Positions 1 through 37,898 of a stretch of DNA of 37,898 bases are shown here, in pieces; position 1 is the stretch's first letter, and the number at the start of each line of letters is the position of its first letter. Under the pieces are notes generated by a model. That model made no database searches. It saw only the letters and a program-made list of their open reading frames with translations, and was not told the DNA's origin. This DNA is from a virus: the IMG/VR virus record IMGVR_UViG_3300028563_000042, positions 1 to 37,898 of that record; one strand, 5' to 3'. The position numbers were made by a program, and so were the translations under genes.

Positions 1-149
1 TATATTTCTAATAAGATTTTTTTTTAGTGTTGACTATAAAACTCAATTCTTTGTATTCTATTTTTCAAATTTTGTACTTCAGAAATGAGTTTAAAAATAC
101 ATAAGAAACATATCCCGCAAACAAAGTATAAAAACTCAATCATTTTTAA
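1..149. repeat. Left copy of terminal direct repeat
   Basis: Positions 1-149 match 37750-37898 base for base except at 21-23 (TTT here, AAG in the right copy). The stretch 24-149 is perfect. It is AT-rich, has no gene, and carries two near-identical boxes, TATAAAACTCAAT at 35-47 and TATAAAAACTCAAT at 127-140. It is either the assembly overlap of a circular genome or a true direct terminal repeat. Confidence 0.95.
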
Positions 150-3088: not shown

Positions 3089-3297
3089 TAATCCTCTCTA
3101 TAGAGCATTAATAAATCTGTTGCGCATTTTTTGCAAACTAGTATGTTTTCAACCCATCTGCCATCTTGACCAGAATACTGAATTCCGGCTATCTTTTTAA
3201 CGAAGTATTTACATATATCGCATTGGAACATCCATTCCTGCTCACCGATTAATTTCATTTCATAGATGATGTTGTCAATTTTACCCTCTGAGACCAT
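3088..3297 (-). CDS. 69-aa CxxC protein, possible zinc finger
   Basis: The product contains CDICKYFV and CKKCATDLL separated by about 25 residues, the spacing of a two-knuckle zinc site. The start at 3297 is chosen because a clear GGGAGGA site lies six bases upstream. The same frame is open to 3417, but that would overlap most of the upstream membrane gene and lacks a good start. The ATG of the next gene overlaps its stop. Confidence 0.6.
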   Translation of the reverse strand: MVSEGKIDNIIYEMKLIGEQEWMFQCDICKYFVKKIAGIQYSGQDGRWVENILVCKKCATDLLMLYRED

Positions 3298-3463
3298 AAA
3301 TAGTCCTCCCTTCATGCTTCCCGTCTCTGGCCTCAAAAAACTCCGGAAGATATAAGAAGCCAACAAAAAGAGTAATTGCCAGCATGAAAGCTGCAACTGT
3401 ACAAACAATATCCTCAAATGCCTCTCTCCAGGGAGAGCGTTTTACGGTTGCCATTTTGCGCAT
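3281..3463 (-). CDS. 60-aa single-pass membrane protein
   Basis: A short basic N-terminus (MRKMATVKRSPWREAFED) is followed by one hydrophobic segment at about residues 19-38 (IVCTVAAFMLAITLFVGFLY) and a charged tail. AGGAGG lies directly upstream. The topology suggests a cytoplasmic N-terminus. Candidate roles include a small holin or a superinfection-type membrane protein, and none is supported by family evidence. Confidence 0.55.
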   Translation of the reverse strand: MRKMATVKRSPWREAFEDIVCTVAAFMLAITLFVGFLYLPEFFEARDGKHEGRTIYGLRG

Positions 3464-10503: not shown

Positions 10504-10781
10504 TAGTTCACCAAGTTTTGTGTGGAATTTTCTTTAGCCACATATTTACTAAATAAATGATTAATGACGTCGCCAGTTATCTTCTCTTTGCCTTGGTCAG
10601 TTGCATATGTTTCAATCATGCAACATAGAAAATTAACTGCCACATCTAACATAATCTGACCGGCATGCCATTCGTTCAAGTTTTTATTTCTAGGAAGGTC
10701 AAAGAAATCACCAGATTCTTTTCTGAGCTTCTCAAATAATTTAACGGTTGCTTCATGTATAACTTGTTTATCGTTTGTCAT
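10503..10781 (-). CDS. 92-aa helical protein, first gene of leftward cassette
   Basis: The product starts MTNDKQVIHEATVKLFEKLR; the start at 10781 is preferred over an in-frame upstream one because AAAAGGGGGAA precedes it. The protein is helical with one hydrophobic patch (IMLDVAVNFLCCM) too short to be a sure membrane span. No motif recognised. A minus-strand promoter should lie in 10782-10880, where TGGAAC and TATACT (17 apart) are the best weak candidate. Confidence 0.55.
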   Translation of the reverse strand: MTNDKQVIHEATVKLFEKLRKESGDFFDLPRNKNLNEWHAGQIMLDVAVNFLCCMIETYATDQGKEKITGDVINHLFSKYVAKENSTQNLVN

Positions 10782-10872
10782 AGTTCCCCCTTTTAGGCAG
10801 TATAACATCTCAAACAGTAGTGTTCCACGTGAAACCATGACATCACATATAGTTAAAATAGTTAATAAAATA

Positions 10873-11041: not shown

Positions 11042-11731
11042 ATGACTGAAGATTTACTTCAAAATCAGGCTGCGCCAAATGAAAATGCGCAAGCACCAAT
11101 TGCTCCTGCAGTGCAGGAAGAAATGGTGCCAAAGTCAGAGATGAACAGAGTGGCAAAAATGTTGCGTGAAACTTACTATGAAAAAGGTAAGGAAGACGCA
11201 ATGAAAAGCTCACAAAATGCAGCTCCGATGCAAGCACAGCAAATGGCCCAAGGCTCAATGTCTGAAGAGCAAGTTCGTCGATTAATCGAAGAACAAACTA
11301 CTAAGATGCAACAGCAACACCTGATGGCTAAAGACGCAGAACGTATTGTTAGCGAATTTGCTAGCAAGATGGATATGGGTAAAGAGGCCTATGAGGATTT
11401 CGAGGATTCCGTTAGAGAACTTGATTTGCGCTCTATCCCAGAGATAGTGCACCTTGCCAATTCTGTAGGAAACACGGCTGACGTCATGTATGACTTAGCT
11501 AAAAATCCCTACAAAATTGCTAATTTGAAAGTATTGGCTCAAACATCGCCGCAGCTCGCTAAAAAAGAGATGCAAAGATTGTCACAGTCAATAGATTCAA
11601 ATAAGGCAGCGGTACAGCAGGTCAATACGCGGGCTCCAGTAAGTCAGATGAAACCTTCAACAGGAATCGCTGATGGTGGAACCGGTATGACCTTGAAGGA
11701 TTTTAAGCGCGCCCCATGGGCACGTGGATAA
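11042..11731 (+). CDS. Scaffolding protein
   Basis: The 229-aa protein sits directly before the coat gene and has the expected composition: Gln-, Met-, Glu- and Lys-rich, mostly helical, with a coiled-coil middle (QMAQGSMSEEQVRRLIEEQ) and a short basic C-terminus (FKRAPWARG) like the coat-binding helix-turn-helix of P22 scaffold. It would nucleate and shape the procapsid and then leave. The ATG is preceded by AGAGGG. No homology search supports it; the call is by position and composition. Confidence 0.8.
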   Translation: MTEDLLQNQAAPNENAQAPIAPAVQEEMVPKSEMNRVAKMLRETYYEKGKEDAMKSSQNAAPMQAQQMAQGSMSEEQVRRLIEEQTTKMQQQHLMAKDAERIVSEFASKMDMGKEAYEDFEDSVRELDLRSIPEIVHLANSVGNTADVMYDLAKNPYKIANLKVLAQTSPQLAKKEMQRLSQSIDSNKAAVQQVNTRAPVSQMKPSTGIADGGTGMTLKDFKRAPWARG

Positions 11732-22719: not shown

Positions 22720-24153
22720 ATGCCAACTAAGAATGCAGTCGATACCACGTTAGTTGGACAAACTGGAACGGGTGCTTTTGCAGGTTCAAATTCCCCAATT
22801 TTTGTTACTCCATCTCTCGGAGCTGCTTCTGCGGATAGCCTTTTACTTAATTCTTCTTATAGTTTGCCAACTTCAGACGGAACAGCCGGGCAGGTTTTAA
22901 CCACGACCGGACTCGGTGTTACTTCATTCCAAAATGCAGCTACCGGCACAATCAATAACGCTACTAATTTAGGCGGTGGGACTGCAACATTTGCAGGCGT
23001 ATCTGGCACTGATTTGACATTTAATACATATACGGCTGGCGCAAATATTAGCTTTAATACTGTTGGTAATTTAACAACGATATCTGCCTCGGGCGCTGGA
23101 ATTACTTTCCCCTATACAAATGCTTTTTGGGTATCACAATTCAGTGGAAGTGATACAAATTTAGGAACATCTATTGATACCCCATTCCTTACCGTCCAAC
23201 ATGCCATAACAGCTTCGGGAGTTACTCCTACGACTATTTATGTTGTAGATTCCGATGTTACTAACACTGAAACTATTTCTACTACTGGAGCGGGACAATC
23301 AATAACTATTTTTGCGCCTGGTACAGTCTTTGCGGGGTCATTTACAATAATTGCGGCCGATATAACGACTATTATAAGTTCATCCGTAAATAATCTTACA
23401 AATTACGGAAGTACATATATAGATTCTTCTTATGTAATAAATAGTACAAATGCGGGTCTTTTGTCTTTAAATACCTTATACATATATTCCAGAAATATTC
23501 TGGGATTAACATGTTCCGGCGGTACAACATATATTGATGTATCTACAATCAACACATTTTCGTTAACAACCAACGCGGTTGCATATTTAAGCGCTCAAAA
23601 TTATACCGGCATCACAAATGATGGAACCGGTATTCTAAATGGCGTCACAGGCGGCGTATTGCCCGGTATTAATGGAAGCTTTCAAATACCTGGTCAATTT
23701 ATAGGAGATAGTATTGCATTTAGCGATACTACCCATGGAATTGTTGGGACGACGATTGCAGACAATGCCGCAACAGGATATGTTGGTGAATTTATAACAA
23801 ACGTTATTTCATCACCTGTGAGCACAACAAATAACAGCGTTGTTAATGTTGGCTCTATAACTGTTGGGGCAGGTGACTGGGATATATATGGTCAAGTAGC
23901 TTTCGCAAACACAGCTGGTGTTATGGGACAATTATATGTTTGGACAAGTTTAACGTCTTCAACAGAACCTGTGCCATATTTAAAATCATTTGCAAATAAC
24001 AATGATTTTGCCCAAGCTCCATATGGTTTGCCTGCTCCGTTTTTGCGCGTAAATCGGAATGTTCCTACTGTTGTGTATCTTTCTGCAAAAGCAAATTTTA
24101 ATACTGGAGCAGGTTCATTTACTGGCGTTATATCTGCAAGACGTATTCGATGA
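22720..24153 (+). CDS. Tail fibre with shaft repeat, beta-helix and C-terminal jelly-roll tip
   Basis: The 477-aa chain has one shaft repeat (NLGGGTATFAGVSGTDLTFN, about residues 76-125), then a beta-helix start FWVSQFSGSDTNLGTSIDTP near residue 137, and a C-terminal 110-residue module (VGSITVGAGDWDIYGQVAFA ... FTGVISARRIR). The SGSDxNxGTxxxPFxTIQxAI sequence is the conserved entry to pectate-lyase-like right-handed helices, and the last module is a very common phage fibre tip. No catalytic residues for polysaccharide cleavage could be assigned. Confidence 0.75.
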   Translation: MPTKNAVDTTLVGQTGTGAFAGSNSPIFVTPSLGAASADSLLLNSSYSLPTSDGTAGQVLTTTGLGVTSFQNAATGTINNATNLGGGTATFAGVSGTDLTFNTYTAGANISFNTVGNLTTISASGAGITFPYTNAFWVSQFSGSDTNLGTSIDTPFLTVQHAITASGVTPTTIYVVDSDVTNTETISTTGAGQSITIFAPGTVFAGSFTIIAADITTIISSSVNNLTNYGSTYIDSSYVINSTNAGLLSLNTLYIYSRNILGLTCSGGTTYIDVSTINTFSLTTNAVAYLSAQNYTGITNDGTGILNGVTGGVLPGINGSFQIPGQFIGDSIAFSDTTHGIVGTTIADNAATGYVGEFITNVISSPVSTTNNSVVNVGSITVGAGDWDIYGQVAFANTAGVMGQLYVWTSLTSSTEPVPYLKSFANNNDFAQAPYGLPAPFLRVNRNVPTVVYLSAKANFNTGAGSFTGVISARRIR

Positions 24154-24176
24154 TTTTTTACTTAGGAGATTATTAA

Positions 24177-25370
24177 ATGGCTACTAACATCATAACTCAG
24201 AATCCATTTTCAGCCACTGGCGTTCGCCCTGGCCAATGGTTTCTGACTAGCTCAGAAGATTATGCGACGCTAATAGCTCCTGGGTATCTCAATTCTGTAT
24301 CATCTGCTGGATTAGAATTTCAGCCAAATGACATTATATTTGCACAATATAATGATGGTGCAAATTTTGGGATGTTTATTGTAACCGTCGACAACGGTGT
24401 ATACACAATGAATGTCTATAGCCCTAACTCAAACAGCTTTATATTTCAACATGTGCAGTTTGTTGCAAAAGGCGGTTCTGACCTTAATGCCGGCACATCA
24501 ATTGGCCTTCCAAAATTAACTATTCAAGCTGCTATTAATGCATTAAATCTTAGCCCATCAGTTACAGGTGTCGTTTTTGTCTTGGATGATGGTAATTATC
24601 AAGAAAATCTGATCATTTCTTATGGTGTGCAAATTTATGCTCCATCCGCATCAATTACTGCATCAAATTTGAATCCGACTGTTACTATTAATGACACTGG
24701 CATTAATACTGTTACAAATATTACTTGCGCACAATTAGCTAATTTTGGCGCAGGGTTATGCGTGAATTTATTAGGCGCACAATCTAATTTATTCTTATAT
24801 GCAAAAATTGTACAAGGTGACATGCATATAGAGGGTGGATTTATTGATGGAAATGTAGCTCAAGTTGCCTCAAATGTGCATGTAACATCAACAGGACAAT
24901 TTGCACCAAATATTATTAATGCCATATTCTTTACTTTAACATTTGATCTGGGTGCAACAATTGCTGGTAACATTCAATCAATTACAGGACCTGGTGTTAG
25001 CAATAATAATATTTATGGAAATCAAACTTTCATAAATCATGTAACTTATCAAATCGATCCATCTACAGAAACCGCAGGAAGAACAGTCGCTGCTTCAGAT
25101 AGCAATACCAGGATTGTTTATAACAATCCTGTAACTGGTGATTACACTCTTCCGCAAACAAGCGATGTGGCTATTCCAATAGGAACACAAATTACTTTCG
25201 TTCAGCTTGGTATTGGCGCGATAAGCTTCATTGCAGGGACCGGAGTTACTATCATTTCTAATCAACCATTGCCTGCCGGCACTAATGGCGCAGGGGCTGT
25301 TGTTTATGCATGGAAATATACAGACACTATCTGGATAGTTTCTGGCGACCTCGCATCCGTTGGACCATAA
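24177..25370 (+). CDS. Tail fibre/spike paralogue with beta-helix
   Basis: The N-terminal 90 residues (VRPGQWFLTSSEDYATLIAP) match the N-terminus of the 979-aa protein in layout, so they probably share a docking site. A beta-helix entry GGSDLNAGTSIGLPKLTIQA is near residue 98. The end resembles the tip module used in the 979-aa gene (QITFVQLGIGAISFIAGTGV). GGAGATT precedes the ATG. Confidence 0.7.
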   Translation: MATNIITQNPFSATGVRPGQWFLTSSEDYATLIAPGYLNSVSSAGLEFQPNDIIFAQYNDGANFGMFIVTVDNGVYTMNVYSPNSNSFIFQHVQFVAKGGSDLNAGTSIGLPKLTIQAAINALNLSPSVTGVVFVLDDGNYQENLIISYGVQIYAPSASITASNLNPTVTINDTGINTVTNITCAQLANFGAGLCVNLLGAQSNLFLYAKIVQGDMHIEGGFIDGNVAQVASNVHVTSTGQFAPNIINAIFFTLTFDLGATIAGNIQSITGPGVSNNNIYGNQTFINHVTYQIDPSTETAGRTVAASDSNTRIVYNNPVTGDYTLPQTSDVAIPIGTQITFVQLGIGAISFIAGTGVTIISNQPLPAGTNGAGAVVYAWKYTDTIWIVSGDLASVGP

Positions 25371-25394
25371 TTTAATTTAATTGGAGACATCAAC

Positions 25395-28334
25395 ATGGCT
25401 ACATCATTATCAGTACTTCAGTCAGGCGTGGTTGGTGTTAATCCACGTATATTATTTTTGGAAACAACAGAAGATCAGGCCATCGTGTTTGGTCCAGGAT
25501 TTATAAATGAACTTCAAAACAATTTAGAAACAAAAGTTCAGAAAGGAGACTTTCTGTTTGTTTTGTTTAATTCGGATTTGTTTCAAGAAATGGCTATCCC
25601 GCAATTTGATGCAAATGGGATCATCACATTACTTCCTGTGGCGGGTGATATCAATACAGGCGGTCCAATTGATGGCGGCCAAAATCTTGGATTTGGTGAA
25701 GGTGTATTTGCACAAGTAGCTGGTTCTTTAATGCAGTTTAAAACTTTAGTTGCTGGTACCAATGTAACACTTTCATCTGATGCAAATAGCATTACCATCA
25801 ACTCTACAGCATCAGGCACGGGAACGATTACAGGCGGCCAAAATCTCGGGGTAGGTGATGGAGTATATTCTGGCGTTTCTGGCCCAACAATGCAATTTAA
25901 ATCTCTTACACAGGGTGCAAATATTATATTAACCCCTGGATCAGATAGCATTGAAATTGCTGCTACGAGTTCCGCCGGCGGCACTATTACTGATGGTGTT
26001 AACTTAGGTGGTGGCAATCAAGTATTTGCGTCTGCATCTGGCGCTGACTTGCAATTCAGAACTTTGATTGCAGGCTCTGGTATCGACATGGTACAAGATG
26101 CTAATACAATTACTGTATCCGGGACTGGAAGCGGTGGAGGTGACATTACAGGCGGTACGAATATTGGTGGCGGCACTGGTGTTTTCGCTGGAACTGTGGT
26201 GCCTAATCTAGAGTTTAAGACATTATTTGCGGGTCCAAATATTAATATAACCAGCGATTCTACTTCCGTGACAATCGGAGCAACTGGTGGGGGGGGTGGA
26301 AATCATCTATATACCTACACACTTTGGGTGGCCCAAAATGGTAACAATTCAAATTCTGGCAGAAGCATCAATGAGCCATTACAAACGATTCAAGCAGCAT
26401 TAAATTTATGTGTGACAGGTTTCACAAACGTTATTAATGTAGTTGATTCTGGAATATATTTAGCATCATCAGCATATACGATACCTGCAGGAGCATATGT
26501 CATTATTAATGCTCCAGGCGCAAGAATTGGTAGCTTGTCTGCTTCTGCAAATTTATTTACCGGTACAAATGTAACTTCTTTCGAAATAATCTGTGATTAT
26601 TTAAATTGGGGACCAACTAAGAACCTATTTAATTTTACAGGAACAATAAATACTATAAATATTGAAGCAAGAACTGTTGTTGGTATTATTAATAATACCG
26701 GAAGCACAAATCTCTATGCAAAGATTACTCAATCTTTAAGTGGCGATATAACAAGTTCATCTTCTGGCACAACTTATATCGATGCTACTGGTTGCGATAT
26801 TGTAGGCTCTATCAATGATACAGGTCCTGCATCAGATAATATTGCTCTCACATATATAAGTGCAAACACACTGAGCGGCGATATCAGCTCAACAAATCAA
26901 CGCATATATGGAAACATTCAAAGCGTTGGTGGCACATTAAATCCTTTAGCCATTAATAATGGATTTTTTAATGGTGATGAATATTTGAATCAATGGCCAA
27001 TTCGAGGCGAGGTATATTCTTATGCCTATAGTTCTCCAACTTCAGGAATTTGGTCATTTTTTCCAGGTTATGTAAGCGGAAATCAGCAAATTATCATTAA
27101 TAGTACTAATGGTGTAATAACATTGCCATTAGGAGGCACGGTTCCTCCTGGCTGGAGAATGACTGCAATCCAAACCGTTAGAAGTAGCGGTGCAACAGTA
27201 CAAGTCCAATCACCTGATACATTCAATGGACAGTTTAATACTGGTAATCATTGTTATACAGGCGCAGGTAAGGCTGAGTTTATTCGCGGTCCTGCTAATA
27301 CAGGTGGCGGATATACTTGGGTTGCTGCAGGTAATGTGTTTCAGGTAAATGCCGCAGTTAATACTGGTGATTTATATGTATCACAAGATAATGGTAGTGA
27401 CACTGACGGCGATGGTTCTTTTGCTAATCCTTTTGCATCATTTAATGCCGCAATCACAGCAGCTGGATCTCCATCTGAGCGTTTAGTTATCATATGTAAT
27501 GATGCGGCTACATACCAAGAAAATATTACTATTGCTAATAGCAATATTAGTATATTTGCACCGGGTGCGACTATTGCGCCAACTTCAGGCGATGTAATTA
27601 CATTAACTTCATCAGCTTCTAACACAGGGATTGTATTTGCCTTTATTGAAGCACCTGTAGGTCAAAATGCTATAAATTCTACTGGAACAACAGCATTATC
27701 AATAACTGGTTCAATTATAGGAAATGTGACTACGAGTGCTGGCGGAACGATTACTATTGCCGGCCCTGCATTGCTTGGTAACTTGAACGCAGTAGTAGGA
27801 AATATTCGTTATATTGTTCAATTTAGATCAGGTACTAATACAGGAACTATTATAGGCTTAAACCCAGATGGATCAACTGCTCCTACCTTTACTGTTAATG
27901 ATTTTGTTTCAGATGGTTTAAGTTACCCTACAGCAGACGCCCCATCAGGTTATGTAGTTACTACTAATGGTGCCGGCGTACTAAGTTTACAACCACCTGC
28001 AGGCGGTGGATTGCCTTTTATTCCAGTCGCTGGAACTTCTCAGACTGCTGTAGCAGGTAATGCTTATGTTTGTCAAAATGCCGCTCAAACAACTGTTTTA
28101 TTGCCTGCAACATGTGCATTGGGCGATACCGTTCGTGTATATGGCCAAGGTGCGGGTGGCTGGACTTTACAAGCTAATGGTGGTCAAACTATTAATCTTG
28201 GTACATCTCCAACTTCAACAGGTGGTTCATTAACTTCTGCAGCAGCTAATGATTTGCTGGAAGTATCGTGCCTTGTTCCAAATACAACTTGGCAAGTTAA
28301 CTATGTATACTCTACTGGTTTATCTATAGCTTAA
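25395..28334 (+). CDS. 979-aa modular fibre: four shaft repeats, two beta-helices, two tip modules
   Basis: After a docking N-terminus (about 1-88), four tandem repeats of about 53 residues run from 90 to 300, each shaped like QNLGVGDGVYSGVSGPTMQF followed by L..G.NI......SI.I. A first beta-helix follows (LWVAQNGNNSNSGRSINEP, about 309-480). A tip-like module is near 535-650, and a second beta-helix (LYVSQDNGSDTDGDGSFANP) starts near 659. The C-terminal module is at 877-979. Repeats and modules recur in neighbouring genes. It is the largest protein in the genome and probably a long trimeric fibre. Confidence 0.75.
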   Translation: MATSLSVLQSGVVGVNPRILFLETTEDQAIVFGPGFINELQNNLETKVQKGDFLFVLFNSDLFQEMAIPQFDANGIITLLPVAGDINTGGPIDGGQNLGFGEGVFAQVAGSLMQFKTLVAGTNVTLSSDANSITINSTASGTGTITGGQNLGVGDGVYSGVSGPTMQFKSLTQGANIILTPGSDSIEIAATSSAGGTITDGVNLGGGNQVFASASGADLQFRTLIAGSGIDMVQDANTITVSGTGSGGGDITGGTNIGGGTGVFAGTVVPNLEFKTLFAGPNINITSDSTSVTIGATGGGGGNHLYTYTLWVAQNGNNSNSGRSINEPLQTIQAALNLCVTGFTNVINVVDSGIYLASSAYTIPAGAYVIINAPGARIGSLSASANLFTGTNVTSFEIICDYLNWGPTKNLFNFTGTINTINIEARTVVGIINNTGSTNLYAKITQSLSGDITSSSSGTTYIDATGCDIVGSINDTGPASDNIALTYISANTLSGDISSTNQRIYGNIQSVGGTLNPLAINNGFFNGDEYLNQWPIRGEVYSYAYSSPTSGIWSFFPGYVSGNQQIIINSTNGVITLPLGGTVPPGWRMTAIQTVRSSGATVQVQSPDTFNGQFNTGNHCYTGAGKAEFIRGPANTGGGYTWVAAGNVFQVNAAVNTGDLYVSQDNGSDTDGDGSFANPFASFNAAITAAGSPSERLVIICNDAATYQENITIANSNISIFAPGATIAPTSGDVITLTSSASNTGIVFAFIEAPVGQNAINSTGTTALSITGSIIGNVTTSAGGTITIAGPALLGNLNAVVGNIRYIVQFRSGTNTGTIIGLNPDGSTAPTFTVNDFVSDGLSYPTADAPSGYVVTTNGAGVLSLQPPAGGGLPFIPVAGTSQTAVAGNAYVCQNAAQTTVLLPATCALGDTVRVYGQGAGGWTLQANGGQTINLGTSPTSTGGSLTSAAANDLLEVSCLVPNTTWQVNYVYSTGLSIA

Positions 28335-28344
28335 GGAGATTAAA

Positions 28345-29607
28345 ATGGCAAGTCCTAGATTTAATAACATGATCAACAATGGGGCCTTTAATGGGACCCA
28401 GATATTTGTTTCGCAAACAGCAGGAAATGATTCTAATTCCGGAAGTTATGGGGCTCCTTTACGGACTCTTAATGCCGCAGTTGCATTAGCGGGTACTCCT
28501 AGTGAATATGTAACCATAAATATATTAGATGGCGGGACTTATGATGAAAATGTCACTCTAACCGATTTTATATGTATTAATGGTCCTTATGCGACTTTAG
28601 AGGCGTCGAGTGGCGATACTTTAACAATTAATCTCGTTGATGGTCATGGGACAGTTTTGGTCAATGTTGCTAATCTTAGTGTAAGAGGTGGCGGCAATTC
28701 TATTACCATTAGCAATGGCGGATTAAATTTAGCTTGCGCAAATAATCTTGTTGGAAATATTTCTAATTCAGGTTCATTGATCGTAAATACTGTTTATTTT
28801 AATGCATCTGTTATTTCAAATACTGGAGGAATTAATTATACATGCTTGGGAACACCTCCACTTAACGTAGGTACTATGTTCGGATTTTCCACAGGTGCAG
28901 CAGCATCTACCGGAGGCATCACGGCCGTAAGTGACATTACAACTGCAGGAAACTTTGCAACTACTGGCACAGGTTATATTCAAGCATTTCATGGTAATGT
29001 TTATGCAGGTGATTCTGCTGGCAATGCTGGGTCATTTGTTTCATATCCTGCCTCTGGTTCAACAGGTTCGTTAGTTGTTCAATCAACATCAAATACTGCT
29101 AATGTCAACACCACATTAACAAACCAAGCATCAAATGTTGGCACAACATTTGCATTGCCACATACATTTGTGAGCAATATTTCTCTGCTGGGTTCTTCGC
29201 TAGCTCAAGTAGAAAACAATGCAAACGTTATTTGGTCTGATACAGCAGTCCCTTACAATGCTATTGCTTCTGGAGCTAGCTTCAGTATATTATTTAATAA
29301 CTTTGCAGGAACATTTAGGGTTAGGGAGATTTATATAAATTCTCAGGGAACAAACTTTTCTGGTGGGGATAGAAATTTAGAAATATATGATGGAGTAACA
29401 TCATATTCTATTATTCCTGCTGTGACATTGCAGGCCCTTGTAAATGCCAGATGGGGAGATCCTGTAAATCTTCCATTTCCTGCCTCGGCATCTATTGCGA
29501 CTCCTACTACTCCTCCATATAATTTGCAGGTTCACTATCAAGGCGGAACGACAGATTATACGGCAGGCTCAATTACAATTACTGCATGCTGGGAAAAAAT
29601 AGCATAA
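28345..29607 (+). CDS. Tail spike paralogue, beta-helix plus C-terminal binding module
   Basis: The 420-aa protein starts MASPRFNNMINNGAFNGTQI and enters a beta-helix at FVSQTAGNDSNSGSYGAPLR, only about 20 residues in, so it lacks the docking domain of the two longer fibres. The C-terminal 130 residues (REIYINSQGTNFSGGDRNLE, ending GSITITACWEKIA) form a recognisable adhesin module common at phage fibre ends. The N-terminus is close to that of the next gene at protein and DNA level. Confidence 0.7.
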   Translation: MASPRFNNMINNGAFNGTQIFVSQTAGNDSNSGSYGAPLRTLNAAVALAGTPSEYVTINILDGGTYDENVTLTDFICINGPYATLEASSGDTLTINLVDGHGTVLVNVANLSVRGGGNSITISNGGLNLACANNLVGNISNSGSLIVNTVYFNASVISNTGGINYTCLGTPPLNVGTMFGFSTGAAASTGGITAVSDITTAGNFATTGTGYIQAFHGNVYAGDSAGNAGSFVSYPASGSTGSLVVQSTSNTANVNTTLTNQASNVGTTFALPHTFVSNISLLGSSLAQVENNANVIWSDTAVPYNAIASGASFSILFNNFAGTFRVREIYINSQGTNFSGGDRNLEIYDGVTSYSIIPAVTLQALVNARWGDPVNLPFPASASIATPTTPPYNLQVHYQGGTTDYTAGSITITACWEKIA

Positions 29608-29622
29608 CCAAAGGAAATTATC

Positions 29623-30846
29623 ATGGCAACGCTTAAATTTAATAATATGGTTAATAATGGACCATTTAATAAAGTTCAGATCTACGTATCTGGAGCTATC
29701 GGAAACGATGCCAATAGTGGAAGTTATGGTAGTCCCTTGAGAACATTTGGAGCAGCAATAACACTTGCTGCTTCCCATGCTGGATGTACAATTATATGTT
29801 TGGATAGCAATAGTTATAACGAAAATATAACAATGACAACTATATTTAACATATATGCTCCCAATGCAAGATTATCACCTTCATCAGGTGATGCAATAAC
29901 ATGCCAAACTGCATCCTCTAATCCTTCTATTACATTCAAAGATATAATTATAGGAAGTGGAAGTTGTTTAAATGTTCCAGGGGGATTTGGATCAGGCAAT
30001 ATATATCTTAATGTCGAATTTATGGATGGAACAGCGGGTGCTGCTGTATATAATGCTCAAAATGGTAATGTTTATATTAATGCAGAAATTATTAATGGTT
30101 CTTTATTAACTGGGGGAAGTGGCAATAATTACTATTATTCAAAAACAAGAAGCGGTTCCGACAGCGCCCAAACATTTGGGCAGTCATTTCCATTAACTCC
30201 TCCAGGTATCTCTACAATAAATGTTCAAACATTTACTTCTAATGGAACATATACACCAACCCCTGGAATGTCTCATTGTATCGTGGAATGTGTTGGCGGA
30301 GGAGGAGGTGGTGGTGGTGTTACTTCTGCCGCAGGCTCATCTGCAGCCGCGGGAGGCGGGGGTGGAGGAGCTTATGCAAAATCTGTTTTATCTGCGGCAA
30401 CTATTGGTGCATCTCAGGCGGTGACTATTGGAACTGGAGGTTCTGGTGGTGCGGCTGGAAATAATAACGGTGCTAACGGGTCAGCTTCTAGTTTAGGTAT
30501 TCTTGTCGAAGCCGATGGAGGAAGCGGTGGTTTAGGTGCTTCTGCGAGCGCATCATTTGGTTTTGGTGTTTTTGGCGCAGGTGGTGGATCTGGTGTTGGA
30601 CAATTGGTAGTCAATGGTAATGAAGGAACCTTAGGTCTATCATTTGGTGCTAATCTTATCGGCCTAGGCGGACCAGGTGGAAATAGTTTTTATGGTGTTG
30701 GCGGAGCACAATTAGTTAATCAGGCCGGCCAAAATGGATATAATTACGGATCAGGCGGAAGTGGAGCTTCATCTGCAAATACCGGAGCAGTTGCAGGTGG
30801 TAATGGAATGCCTGGTATTGTAATTGTTACTGAATATATTTCTTGA
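29623..30846 (+). CDS. Tail spike paralogue with glycine-rich adhesin tip
   Basis: The 407-aa protein begins MATLKFNNMVNNGPFNKVQI, nearly the same as the previous gene, with a beta-helix entry SGAIGNDANSGSYGSPLRTF. From about residue 202 it becomes a glycine-rich domain (FTSNGTYTPTPGMSHCIVEC, then runs such as GGGGGGGG), the architecture of polyglycine-type adhesin tips like those described for some T-even-type fibre adhesins. That tip would bind a receptor through loops between glycine helices. It is the last gene of the rightward block. Confidence 0.7.
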   Translation: MATLKFNNMVNNGPFNKVQIYVSGAIGNDANSGSYGSPLRTFGAAITLAASHAGCTIICLDSNSYNENITMTTIFNIYAPNARLSPSSGDAITCQTASSNPSITFKDIIIGSGSCLNVPGGFGSGNIYLNVEFMDGTAGAAVYNAQNGNVYINAEIINGSLLTGGSGNNYYYSKTRSGSDSAQTFGQSFPLTPPGISTINVQTFTSNGTYTPTPGMSHCIVECVGGGGGGGGVTSAAGSSAAAGGGGGGAYAKSVLSAATIGASQAVTIGTGGSGGAAGNNNGANGSASSLGILVEADGGSGGLGASASASFGFGVFGAGGGSGVGQLVVNGNEGTLGLSFGANLIGLGGPGGNSFYGVGGAQLVNQAGQNGYNYGSGGSGASSANTGAVAGGNGMPGIVIVTEYIS

Positions 30847-35591: not shown

Positions 35592-35855
35592 TCAGAATTT
35601 CGGCATGCGCAAGTCTTTTTTTGACAAATCTGGTCTTAATTCAAAAATAGTTATTCTATCTTGCAGCATCCGTTCTAACCGATAAGCATATTGCTCGGTA
35701 ATCACCTTTCTGCCGCAATACCAGTCATTGACCGTTTGGCGAGATATTCCTAAGGATTCGGCTATTGCTGTCTGCGTTTTAAAGAACTTTAATAGTTTAT
35801 TTAGCCCTTTCAAATGCTTTTGAGTTGGAAATACGGTTTGAATTGGTTTTGGCAT
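35592..35855 (-). CDS. YdaS/Cro-like helix-turn-helix regulator
   Basis: The 87-aa protein has an HTH at about residues 28-48 (TAIAESLGISRQTVNDWYCG) and continues with ITEQYAYRLERMLQDRITIF then ELRPDL. The 'V(I)xxxxAxxxE...ITxxELRPDL' ending is the hallmark of YdaS-type Cro regulators of lambdoid phages and cryptic prophages. It should bind operators near its own promoter and control early transcription. It is the first gene of the recombination operon. No CI-type partner repressor is seen. Confidence 0.85.
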   Translation of the reverse strand: MPKPIQTVFPTQKHLKGLNKLLKFFKTQTAIAESLGISRQTVNDWYCGRKVITEQYAYRLERMLQDRITIFELRPDLSKKDLRMPKF

Positions 35856-35903: not shown

Positions 35904-35935
35904 AAAAAAAAGCCCCAACAATAAATGATGGGGCT
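35904..35935 (-). terminator. Strong leftward intrinsic terminator
   Basis: Read on the minus strand, AGCCCCA pairs with TGGGGCT (35929-35935 and 35911-35917), with an 11-base loop, followed by eight T (35911-35904). It would end any leftward transcript arriving from 36.1 kb before the regulator gene. Confidence 0.9.
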
Positions 35936-35936
35936 A

Positions 35937-36281: not shown

Positions 36282-36308
36282 AAAAAAGCCCCGGGTTTAA
36301 GCGGGGCT
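36282..36308 (-). terminator. Strong leftward terminator (works weakly rightward)
   Basis: AGCCCCG (36287-36293) pairs with CGGGGCT (36302-36308) with an 8-base loop; on the minus strand it is followed by six T (36287-36282). It would end leftward transcripts from 36.3-36.5 kb. Confidence 0.9.
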
Positions 36309-36311
36309 ATT

Positions 36312-36464: not shown

Positions 36465-36493
36465 ATCTTTTGATACCTCCTAATCTTTCTTAT

Positions 36494-36826
36494 GGGACTG
36501 GGATTTATCGGGGAAACAACGTTGTGCCCAGTTCTATAGAATCTCAACTACAAGGCTATCCATGGTTGAGTACTGAGGGCGAATTGCTGGAACAGTGGGT
36601 GCACCTAAGCAATTAGAGAAAGCCAGCAAATGTTGAAGGGGCGTGCTGTCTGGCATAACTTCATAGACATGGTTCGGGTGACGCAAGAGAAACTTGTGTC
36701 CTGGCCCGAGCTATGTCTCTGCTAACGTACTATCCAGCATATTAACTAGATCTAGAATATAAATAGATCTTAATTCTAGGGATCTAGATCTCTATGCTAA
36801 TATTCTAAACAAAGGAGGGAGATCCC
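36494..36826 (+). ncRNA. Multi-hairpin structured RNA / candidate cis-regulatory leader
   Basis: At least six hairpins in a row: GGACTGGG with CCCAGTTC (36495-36502, 36527-36534); CTCAAC/GTTGAG (36543-36548, 36565-36570); AATTGCT/AGCAATT (36582-36588, 36608-36614); GCCAG/CTGGC (36622-36626, 36650-36654); a 14-bp stem 36665-36678 with 36705-36718 capped by an 8-bp stem 36680-36687 with 36693-36700; and AGCATA, CTAGATC, TAGAAT with their partners (36736-36798). No convincing reading frame lies inside. It ends in a ribosome site for a 19-aa leader. Not matched to any RNA family. Confidence 0.6.
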
Positions 36827-36829
36827 AAA

Positions 36830-36889
36830 ATGAAATCTATTAAGCAACAGATCTCCAAATCAAGGGCAAAGTTAAAAGGATTTAAATGA
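36830..36889 (+). CDS. 19-aa basic leader peptide
   Basis: The frame is MKSIKQQISKSRAKLKGFK with a strong AGGAGGG site (36813-36819) 10 bases upstream. It ends by ATGA overlap with the 126-aa gene, which itself lacks a strong ribosome site of its own, so translation of the longer gene probably depends on the leader. It is rich in Lys and Arg. It directly follows the structured RNA. Confidence 0.5.
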   Translation: MKSIKQQISKSRAKLKGFK

Positions 36890-37266
36890 TAACCATATTG
36901 ATATTAGTAAGCTTGTTAGGGCTTTATATTTTTGTAACTAAGAAACTTTTACCAAAAAAGGATGATTCTGGAGATATCTGGGCTCATACCATTATCAGAA
37001 ACAAGATAAATGCTTATTGGGGAAAAGATGTTTGCGTTGATTCATTTATAATGCCATTGGGAGCGTTTTCAGAAGAACCCTATAGCCTAGAGTGGCCACT
37101 AGACAGATTAATGATTGTAAGCGTTTTGGTTGAGTTTAACGGGCATGTTTCTGAGCATTCAGTACTTGTAGAAGAAATAACAGAAAAAACGATTACTGAA
37201 GCAGCTGGATCACTTATACTTAAGATAGATGCATATTTAGAACGTTTGACAATATCCGGATGCTAG
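36886..37266 (+). CDS. 126-aa membrane-anchored protein, unknown function
   Basis: An N-terminal hydrophobic helix (ILILVSLLGLYIFVTKKLLP, about residues 3-20) is followed by a soluble beta/helix domain that includes NAYWGKDVCVDSFIMPLGAF and a C-terminal helix. One membrane span with a globular domain could be a superinfection-exclusion, lysis-control or host-interaction protein. It lies downstream of a multi-hairpin RNA and leader peptide, which suggests tight control. No family is recognised. Confidence 0.6.
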   Translation: MITILILVSLLGLYIFVTKKLLPKKDDSGDIWAHTIIRNKINAYWGKDVCVDSFIMPLGAFSEEPYSLEWPLDRLMIVSVLVEFNGHVSEHSVLVEEITEKTITEAAGSLILKIDAYLERLTISGC

Positions 37267-37734: not shown

Positions 37735-37751
37735 TAGCTTATTTTAAGCTA
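37735..37751. repeat. 17-bp inverted repeat upstream of the membrane gene
   Basis: TAGCTTA (37735-37741) and TAAGCTA (37745-37751) flank TTT. It lies about 40 bases upstream of the ATG at 37697 (minus strand) and could be an operator. Its right arm reaches into the start of the repeat shared with position 1. Confidence 0.5.
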
Positions 37752-37898
37752 TATTTCTAATAAGATTTTAAGTTAGTGTTGACTATAAAACTCAATTCTT
37801 TGTATTCTATTTTTCAAATTTTGTACTTCAGAAATGAGTTTAAAAATACATAAGAAACATATCCCGCAAACAAAGTATAAAAACTCAATCATTTTTAA
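37750..37898. repeat. Right copy of terminal direct repeat
   Basis: Matches 1-149 except AAG at 37770-37772 in place of TTT. On a circular map the sequence continues from here into the leftward operon at 153. Confidence 0.95.

Follow-up and report, generated by a model that had tools for sequence, protein, structure and literature searches.

Does the stretch of DNA between a regulator gene and a membrane-protein gene in an environmental phage encode an RNA, and if so, does this RNA control the gene behind it or act on its own? The question arises in a 37.9-kb virus record (IMG/VR IMGVR_UViG_3300028563_000042), whose whole length of 37,898 nt we analysed and call the window. An earlier note had described positions 36494-36826 as a multi-hairpin RNA with almost no coding potential, which would carry a ribosome-site switch in front of a short leader peptide. 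The letters and coordinates quoted there were all correct when rechecked against the sequence.

The locus in two related phages

The two 149-base ends of the window (1-149 and 37750-37898) are nearly identical (126 bases exact). It therefore probably closes into a complete tailed-phage genome, in which case the gene order of the RNA region would run across the join to a lysozyme-like gene (328-813). The genes of the window include those for a terminase, a portal protein, a capsid protein, RecT and RusA, and through the terminase, which is 84% identical, we traced a related environmental phage contig of 40,547 bp (G001). The RNA locus of the window is flanked by a divergent YdaS/Cro-type HTH regulator gene (35592-35855, minus strand; Pfam YdaS_toxin, E 2.6e-10) and by the gene of a 126-aa membrane protein with one helix (36886-37266, plus strand). 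Its counterpart in G001 occupies the same place, between that phage's own YdaS-type gene, whose product is 44% identical to the window regulator over 72 aa, and a gene for a one-helix protein of 125 aa. The order from the RNA through an array of AGATCT words to the membrane-protein gene is identical in the two phages. Between the RNA and the divergent regulator gene of the window, minus-strand hairpins with T runs at 35905-35936 and 36284-36310 resemble terminators that would shield the YdaS-type gene.

The ORF list and AlphaFold models (pLDDT 77) give the membrane proteins of both phages a single transmembrane helix, N-terminal in the window protein, followed by a predicted alpha-beta-beta-beta-alpha domain. 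The 126-aa protein has no sequence match in Pfam or PDB, and the G001 copy has one weak PHROG match, to a family of unknown function. Fold matches to HPF/RaiA (ribosome hibernation factors), LptE and porphobilinogen deaminase were set aside, as Z scores of up to 6.8 are background for such models.

Other parts of the contigs drew attention for different reasons. The window segment 11004-11065, around the start of a 229-aa ORF at 11042 and including about 38 non-coding bases, is 87% identical to G001, above the flanking coding DNA. In another phage contig (G003), the stretch L056:1-227 carries several copies of CACGAAATCTAAGCTAACTTACTTGA immediately ahead of a YdaS-like gene (228-470), an arrangement like that of an operator array. 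At 22720-30846 of the window, large ORFs in a row resemble one another in their N-terminal parts (such as VSQTAGNDSNSGSYGAPLRTL and VSGAIGNDANSGSYGSPLRTF), which suggests duplicated surface or fibre proteins.

Fold and conservation of the RNA core

Folding of 36480-36890 gave a minimum free energy of -123.9 kcal/mol (z -3.96), with none of 100 shuffles as good, and the core folded alone (36494-36745) gave a z of -3.93. The conserved structured core extends over about 255 nt (36490-36744, plus strand). Its homologue lies at C1:3136-3400 of G001, on the minus strand, where similarity was initially detected at 3138-3333. In a hand-adjusted alignment of these two sequences, on which all our pair counts rest, they share a fold whose 54 pairs make up five stem domains; all 54 are standard in the window and 53 in G001. 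Twelve of the pairs differ between the phages by two-sided compensating changes and ten by one-sided ones. When, as a control, all 3' partners were slid by 1-3 bases, the two-sided changes fell to 0-1, and about 31-37 pairs were broken in the window. The fold is thus far beyond chance, because G001 preserves it with compensating changes.

The stems differ in how they are supported. P1 (36494-36501 with 36528-36535; local z -3.9) has three two-sided and two one-sided changes in its eight pairs, and its loop carries TTATCGGGGA and CAACGTT, both nearly invariant in G001. P2 (36543-36548 with 36565-36570) has two-sided changes in three of six pairs. Both needed manual register and therefore lean on the fold; P3 to P5 also appear in the automatic alignment. 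P3 (36585-36590 with 36623-36628) shows one two-sided and one one-sided change and encloses two short helices, P3a (36595-36597 with 36602-36604) and P3b (36605-36608 with 36613-36616), the latter with a one-sided change. The single-sequence minimum prefers another partner for 36585-36590, and G001 favours P3. P4 (36630-36635 with 36651-36656) is the weakest helix, with several G-U pairs and one-sided consistent changes in three of six pairs, and has a near-invariant GAAGGGGCnTGCnGTCT in its loop. As neither P3 nor P4 belongs to the best single-sequence fold of either RNA, they stand on the comparison only. The long hairpin P5 (36666-36717) is the 14-bp stem topped by an 8-bp stem that had been noticed earlier, and folds by itself with a z of -6.6; its 21 counted pairs include five two-sided and three one-sided consistent changes and one mismatch in G001, where one G-U pair of the 14-bp stem is not kept. 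It is followed by a 3' tail, TCTGCTAACnTACyATCCAGCrTAT (36718-36744, plus strand), near-identical in G001. The near-invariant loops and this tail would fit binding by a protein or a second RNA, or else packing into a compact tertiary fold.

The core is 68% identical to G001 at aligned positions, with long near-invariant loops. At four-fold synonymous sites, identity is no more than 16-53% in the genes for terminase, portal, capsid, lysozyme, RusA and the membrane protein, and we conclude that selection holds the RNA. It is also better kept than the gene that it would control, whose product is only 24-26% identical to its G001 counterpart. The low coding potential reported for the region was confirmed by the ORF list and a frame check, and the homologue keeps the stems rather than a protein frame: the alignment has indels of 1, 2, 3, 5 and 7 bases, and both phages have stops in all six frames. 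Indels of 1, 2, 5 and 7 bases, together with stops in every frame, exclude a protein. One might still suppose that there is no RNA here, the fold being due to chance and the similarity to a protein or a DNA element, and the small number of sequences leaves some room for this. Set against the 12 two-sided changes, the frame-breaking indels and the stops in the six frames of both phages, such a reading is scarcely credible. As judged from compensating changes that preserve one fold in two sequences, the region is a conserved structured RNA, and the multi-stem RNA first proposed from the window letters is in this respect borne out.

The stretch before the membrane-protein gene

The conserved core stops at about 36744, some 140 nt before the gene and upstream of the region of the proposed switch. 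From there to the start codon the sequence varies between the phages, with the exception of a cluster of self-complementary words (36748-36791, plus strand), namely AGATCT at 36748, 36765 and 36786 and GGATCT at 36780. At the corresponding place G001 carries AGATCT four times, spaced by 17, 14 and 6, against 17, 15 and 6 in the window, and none of 200 shuffled genomes reaches such clusters. By this comparison the array is itself conserved, and it may serve either as hairpins in the RNA or as binding sites in the DNA.

The switch of the earlier note lies within this stretch. It held that GGGATCT has two mutually exclusive partners, one within the last hairpin and the other AGATCCC, and that the choice would control a 19-aa leader and the membrane protein. 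The complements GGGATCT/AGATCCC and CTAGATC/GATCTAG are indeed present, so that both pairings can be drawn, and in the ensemble of 36743-36900 their probabilities are about 0.06 for the last hairpin and 0.73 for the pairing with AGATCCC, next to the Shine-Dalgarno (SD) sequence. The leader ORF (36830-36889, plus strand; SD AGGAGGG at 36813-36819) can be read from the sequence, and its stop overlaps the start of the next gene (ATGA), which would permit coupling. As a switch, the pairings nonetheless do not stand out from chance: a complement of at least 7 bases arises in 8.6% of Markov-shuffled spacers, and the mean accessibility of AGGAGGG, 0.32, is that of shuffled spacers (median 0.35; 44% of shuffles as low or lower). 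Neither the leader ORF nor the pairing partners of the SD are conserved in G001, so that control of a leader peptide is not supported. The alternative pairings follow from the clustering of AGATCT, a word identical to its reverse complement. We therefore find the switch very unlikely; it looks like a coincidence.

Possible roles of the RNA

The absence of the RNA from known classes, which had been suspected, agrees with our searches. Rfam 15 gave no match to the whole window at the gathering cut-off, and no plausible match over the element of either phage at E values up to 10. DNA similarity searches of phage and plasmid collections returned short chance matches only, and DNA-pattern scans for the core, four of viral contigs and one of bacterial genome contigs, confirmed only G001. 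A search of related phage records and some 1,700 bacterial genomes with a covariance model (R1) gave no third member; two of the genome samples were largely the same, so that fewer genomes than this were distinct. Two weak matches were judged to be chance, since both overlap protein-coding ORFs. A structured region before a tRNA-Pro gene of another contig (G005) was tested as a relative of the RNA and is not one. This intergenic gap (L049:10433-10809, 377 bases) ends in the tRNA gene (10730-10806) and has a z of about -4.4, tRNA included. Its part before the tRNA (L049:10433-10729) matches nothing in Rfam, nor any DNA of the phage collection, and its tRNA-adjacent position recalls GOLLD and ROOL.

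GOLLD and ROOL are large folded RNAs of phages and prophages, supported by covariation and of unknown function; both families are held in Rfam, and they often lie beside tRNA genes, as a tendency and not a requirement (PMC12286853). The window RNA resembles them as a phage-encoded folded RNA supported by compensating changes, but has about 255 nt rather than several hundred and no match to an Rfam covariance model. The window also has no tRNA gene; G001 has a tRNA-Asn gene about 2.3 kb from the RNA. OLE RNA, of about 600 nt, is found in Gram-positive bacteria and associates with the membrane protein OapA (PMC12286853, PMC12265935). A membrane-protein gene also adjoins the window RNA, whose core is, however, only 255 nt long and without Rfam match, and whose neighbour protein has a single transmembrane helix. 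Size and the empty Rfam search thus exclude membership of GOLLD, ROOL and OLE. A further reading is a membrane ribonucleoprotein of a new class, in which the candidate RNA would be bound and tethered by the one-helix protein encoded directly behind it. Folds that bind RNA or ribosomes have the same arrangement as the alpha-beta-beta-beta-alpha domain predicted for this protein; we nevertheless consider such a particle unlikely.

With a confidence little above even, we favour the view that 36490-36744 (plus strand) is a stand-alone, trans-acting conserved phage RNA outside the Rfam families, with two known members. Transcription would run rightwards from a putative start between the divergent YdaS-type regulator and the RNA, which would fold on its own and work through its conserved loops, presumably in trans and with putative processing and a putative partner. 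The palindromic AGATCT hairpins after the core may separate it from the membrane-protein message. Our preference for a stand-alone RNA has three grounds: some 140 nt lie between the end of the core and the gene, this stretch varies, and the protein is conserved much less well than the RNA. There is no conserved leader peptide and no occlusion of the SD beyond chance, and we count both in its favour. Against it stand the number of sequences, two, the hand alignment of P1 and P2, the place of P3 and P4 outside the best single-sequence folds, and an order in both phages like that of a cis-acting element; nor was a convincing promoter or terminator that would delimit the RNA found around the core.

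This shared order makes a serious rival of a cis-acting 5' leader of the membrane-protein gene, in which the core would respond to a ligand, to the stage of infection or to a protein, perhaps the one encoded downstream, and control transcription through the gene or its translation. We give it an appreciable but clearly less than even chance. Complex folded 5' leaders are typical of riboswitches, and the RNA resembles riboswitch and attenuator leaders in lying folded upstream of a co-oriented gene. Orientation and order are the same in both phages, the segment from SD to start, AAGGATTTAnATG, is conserved, and the SD of the G001 gene is strongly paired (mean accessibility 0.20). This occlusion is within chance, with 10% of shuffles as low, and it is weak in the window (0.78 open). 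A riboswitch or attenuator also needs a conserved expression platform, and here there is neither such a platform nor a conserved leader peptide; apart from the AGATCT array, the phages differ in the stretch from core to start, and the gene has diverged far more than the RNA. The same array could alternatively be read as the GATC-rich element of a replication origin, with the RNA as its primer or R-loop transcript, as in ColE1, where RNAII is the replication primer RNA. This picture would fit the G-rich loops of the structured RNA and the conserved, AT-rich and GATC-dense stretch that comes after it in both phages. But the extremes of GC skew, and with them its switch, lie elsewhere, both in the window (minimum 3881, maximum 33107) and in G001 (38073 and 8612), and no initiator repeats were identified, which makes an origin highly improbable.

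To our knowledge, few phage-encoded structured RNAs besides tRNAs have a known role. The case also illustrates that self-complementary words, when clustered, can give the appearance of a switch. The RNA adjoins a regulator and a membrane-protein gene, and its modest size of 255 nt makes it suitable for probing, pull-down and structural studies. As a compact RNA of an environmental phage that is under selection and whose fold is backed by compensating changes, it is a tractable candidate for a new family.
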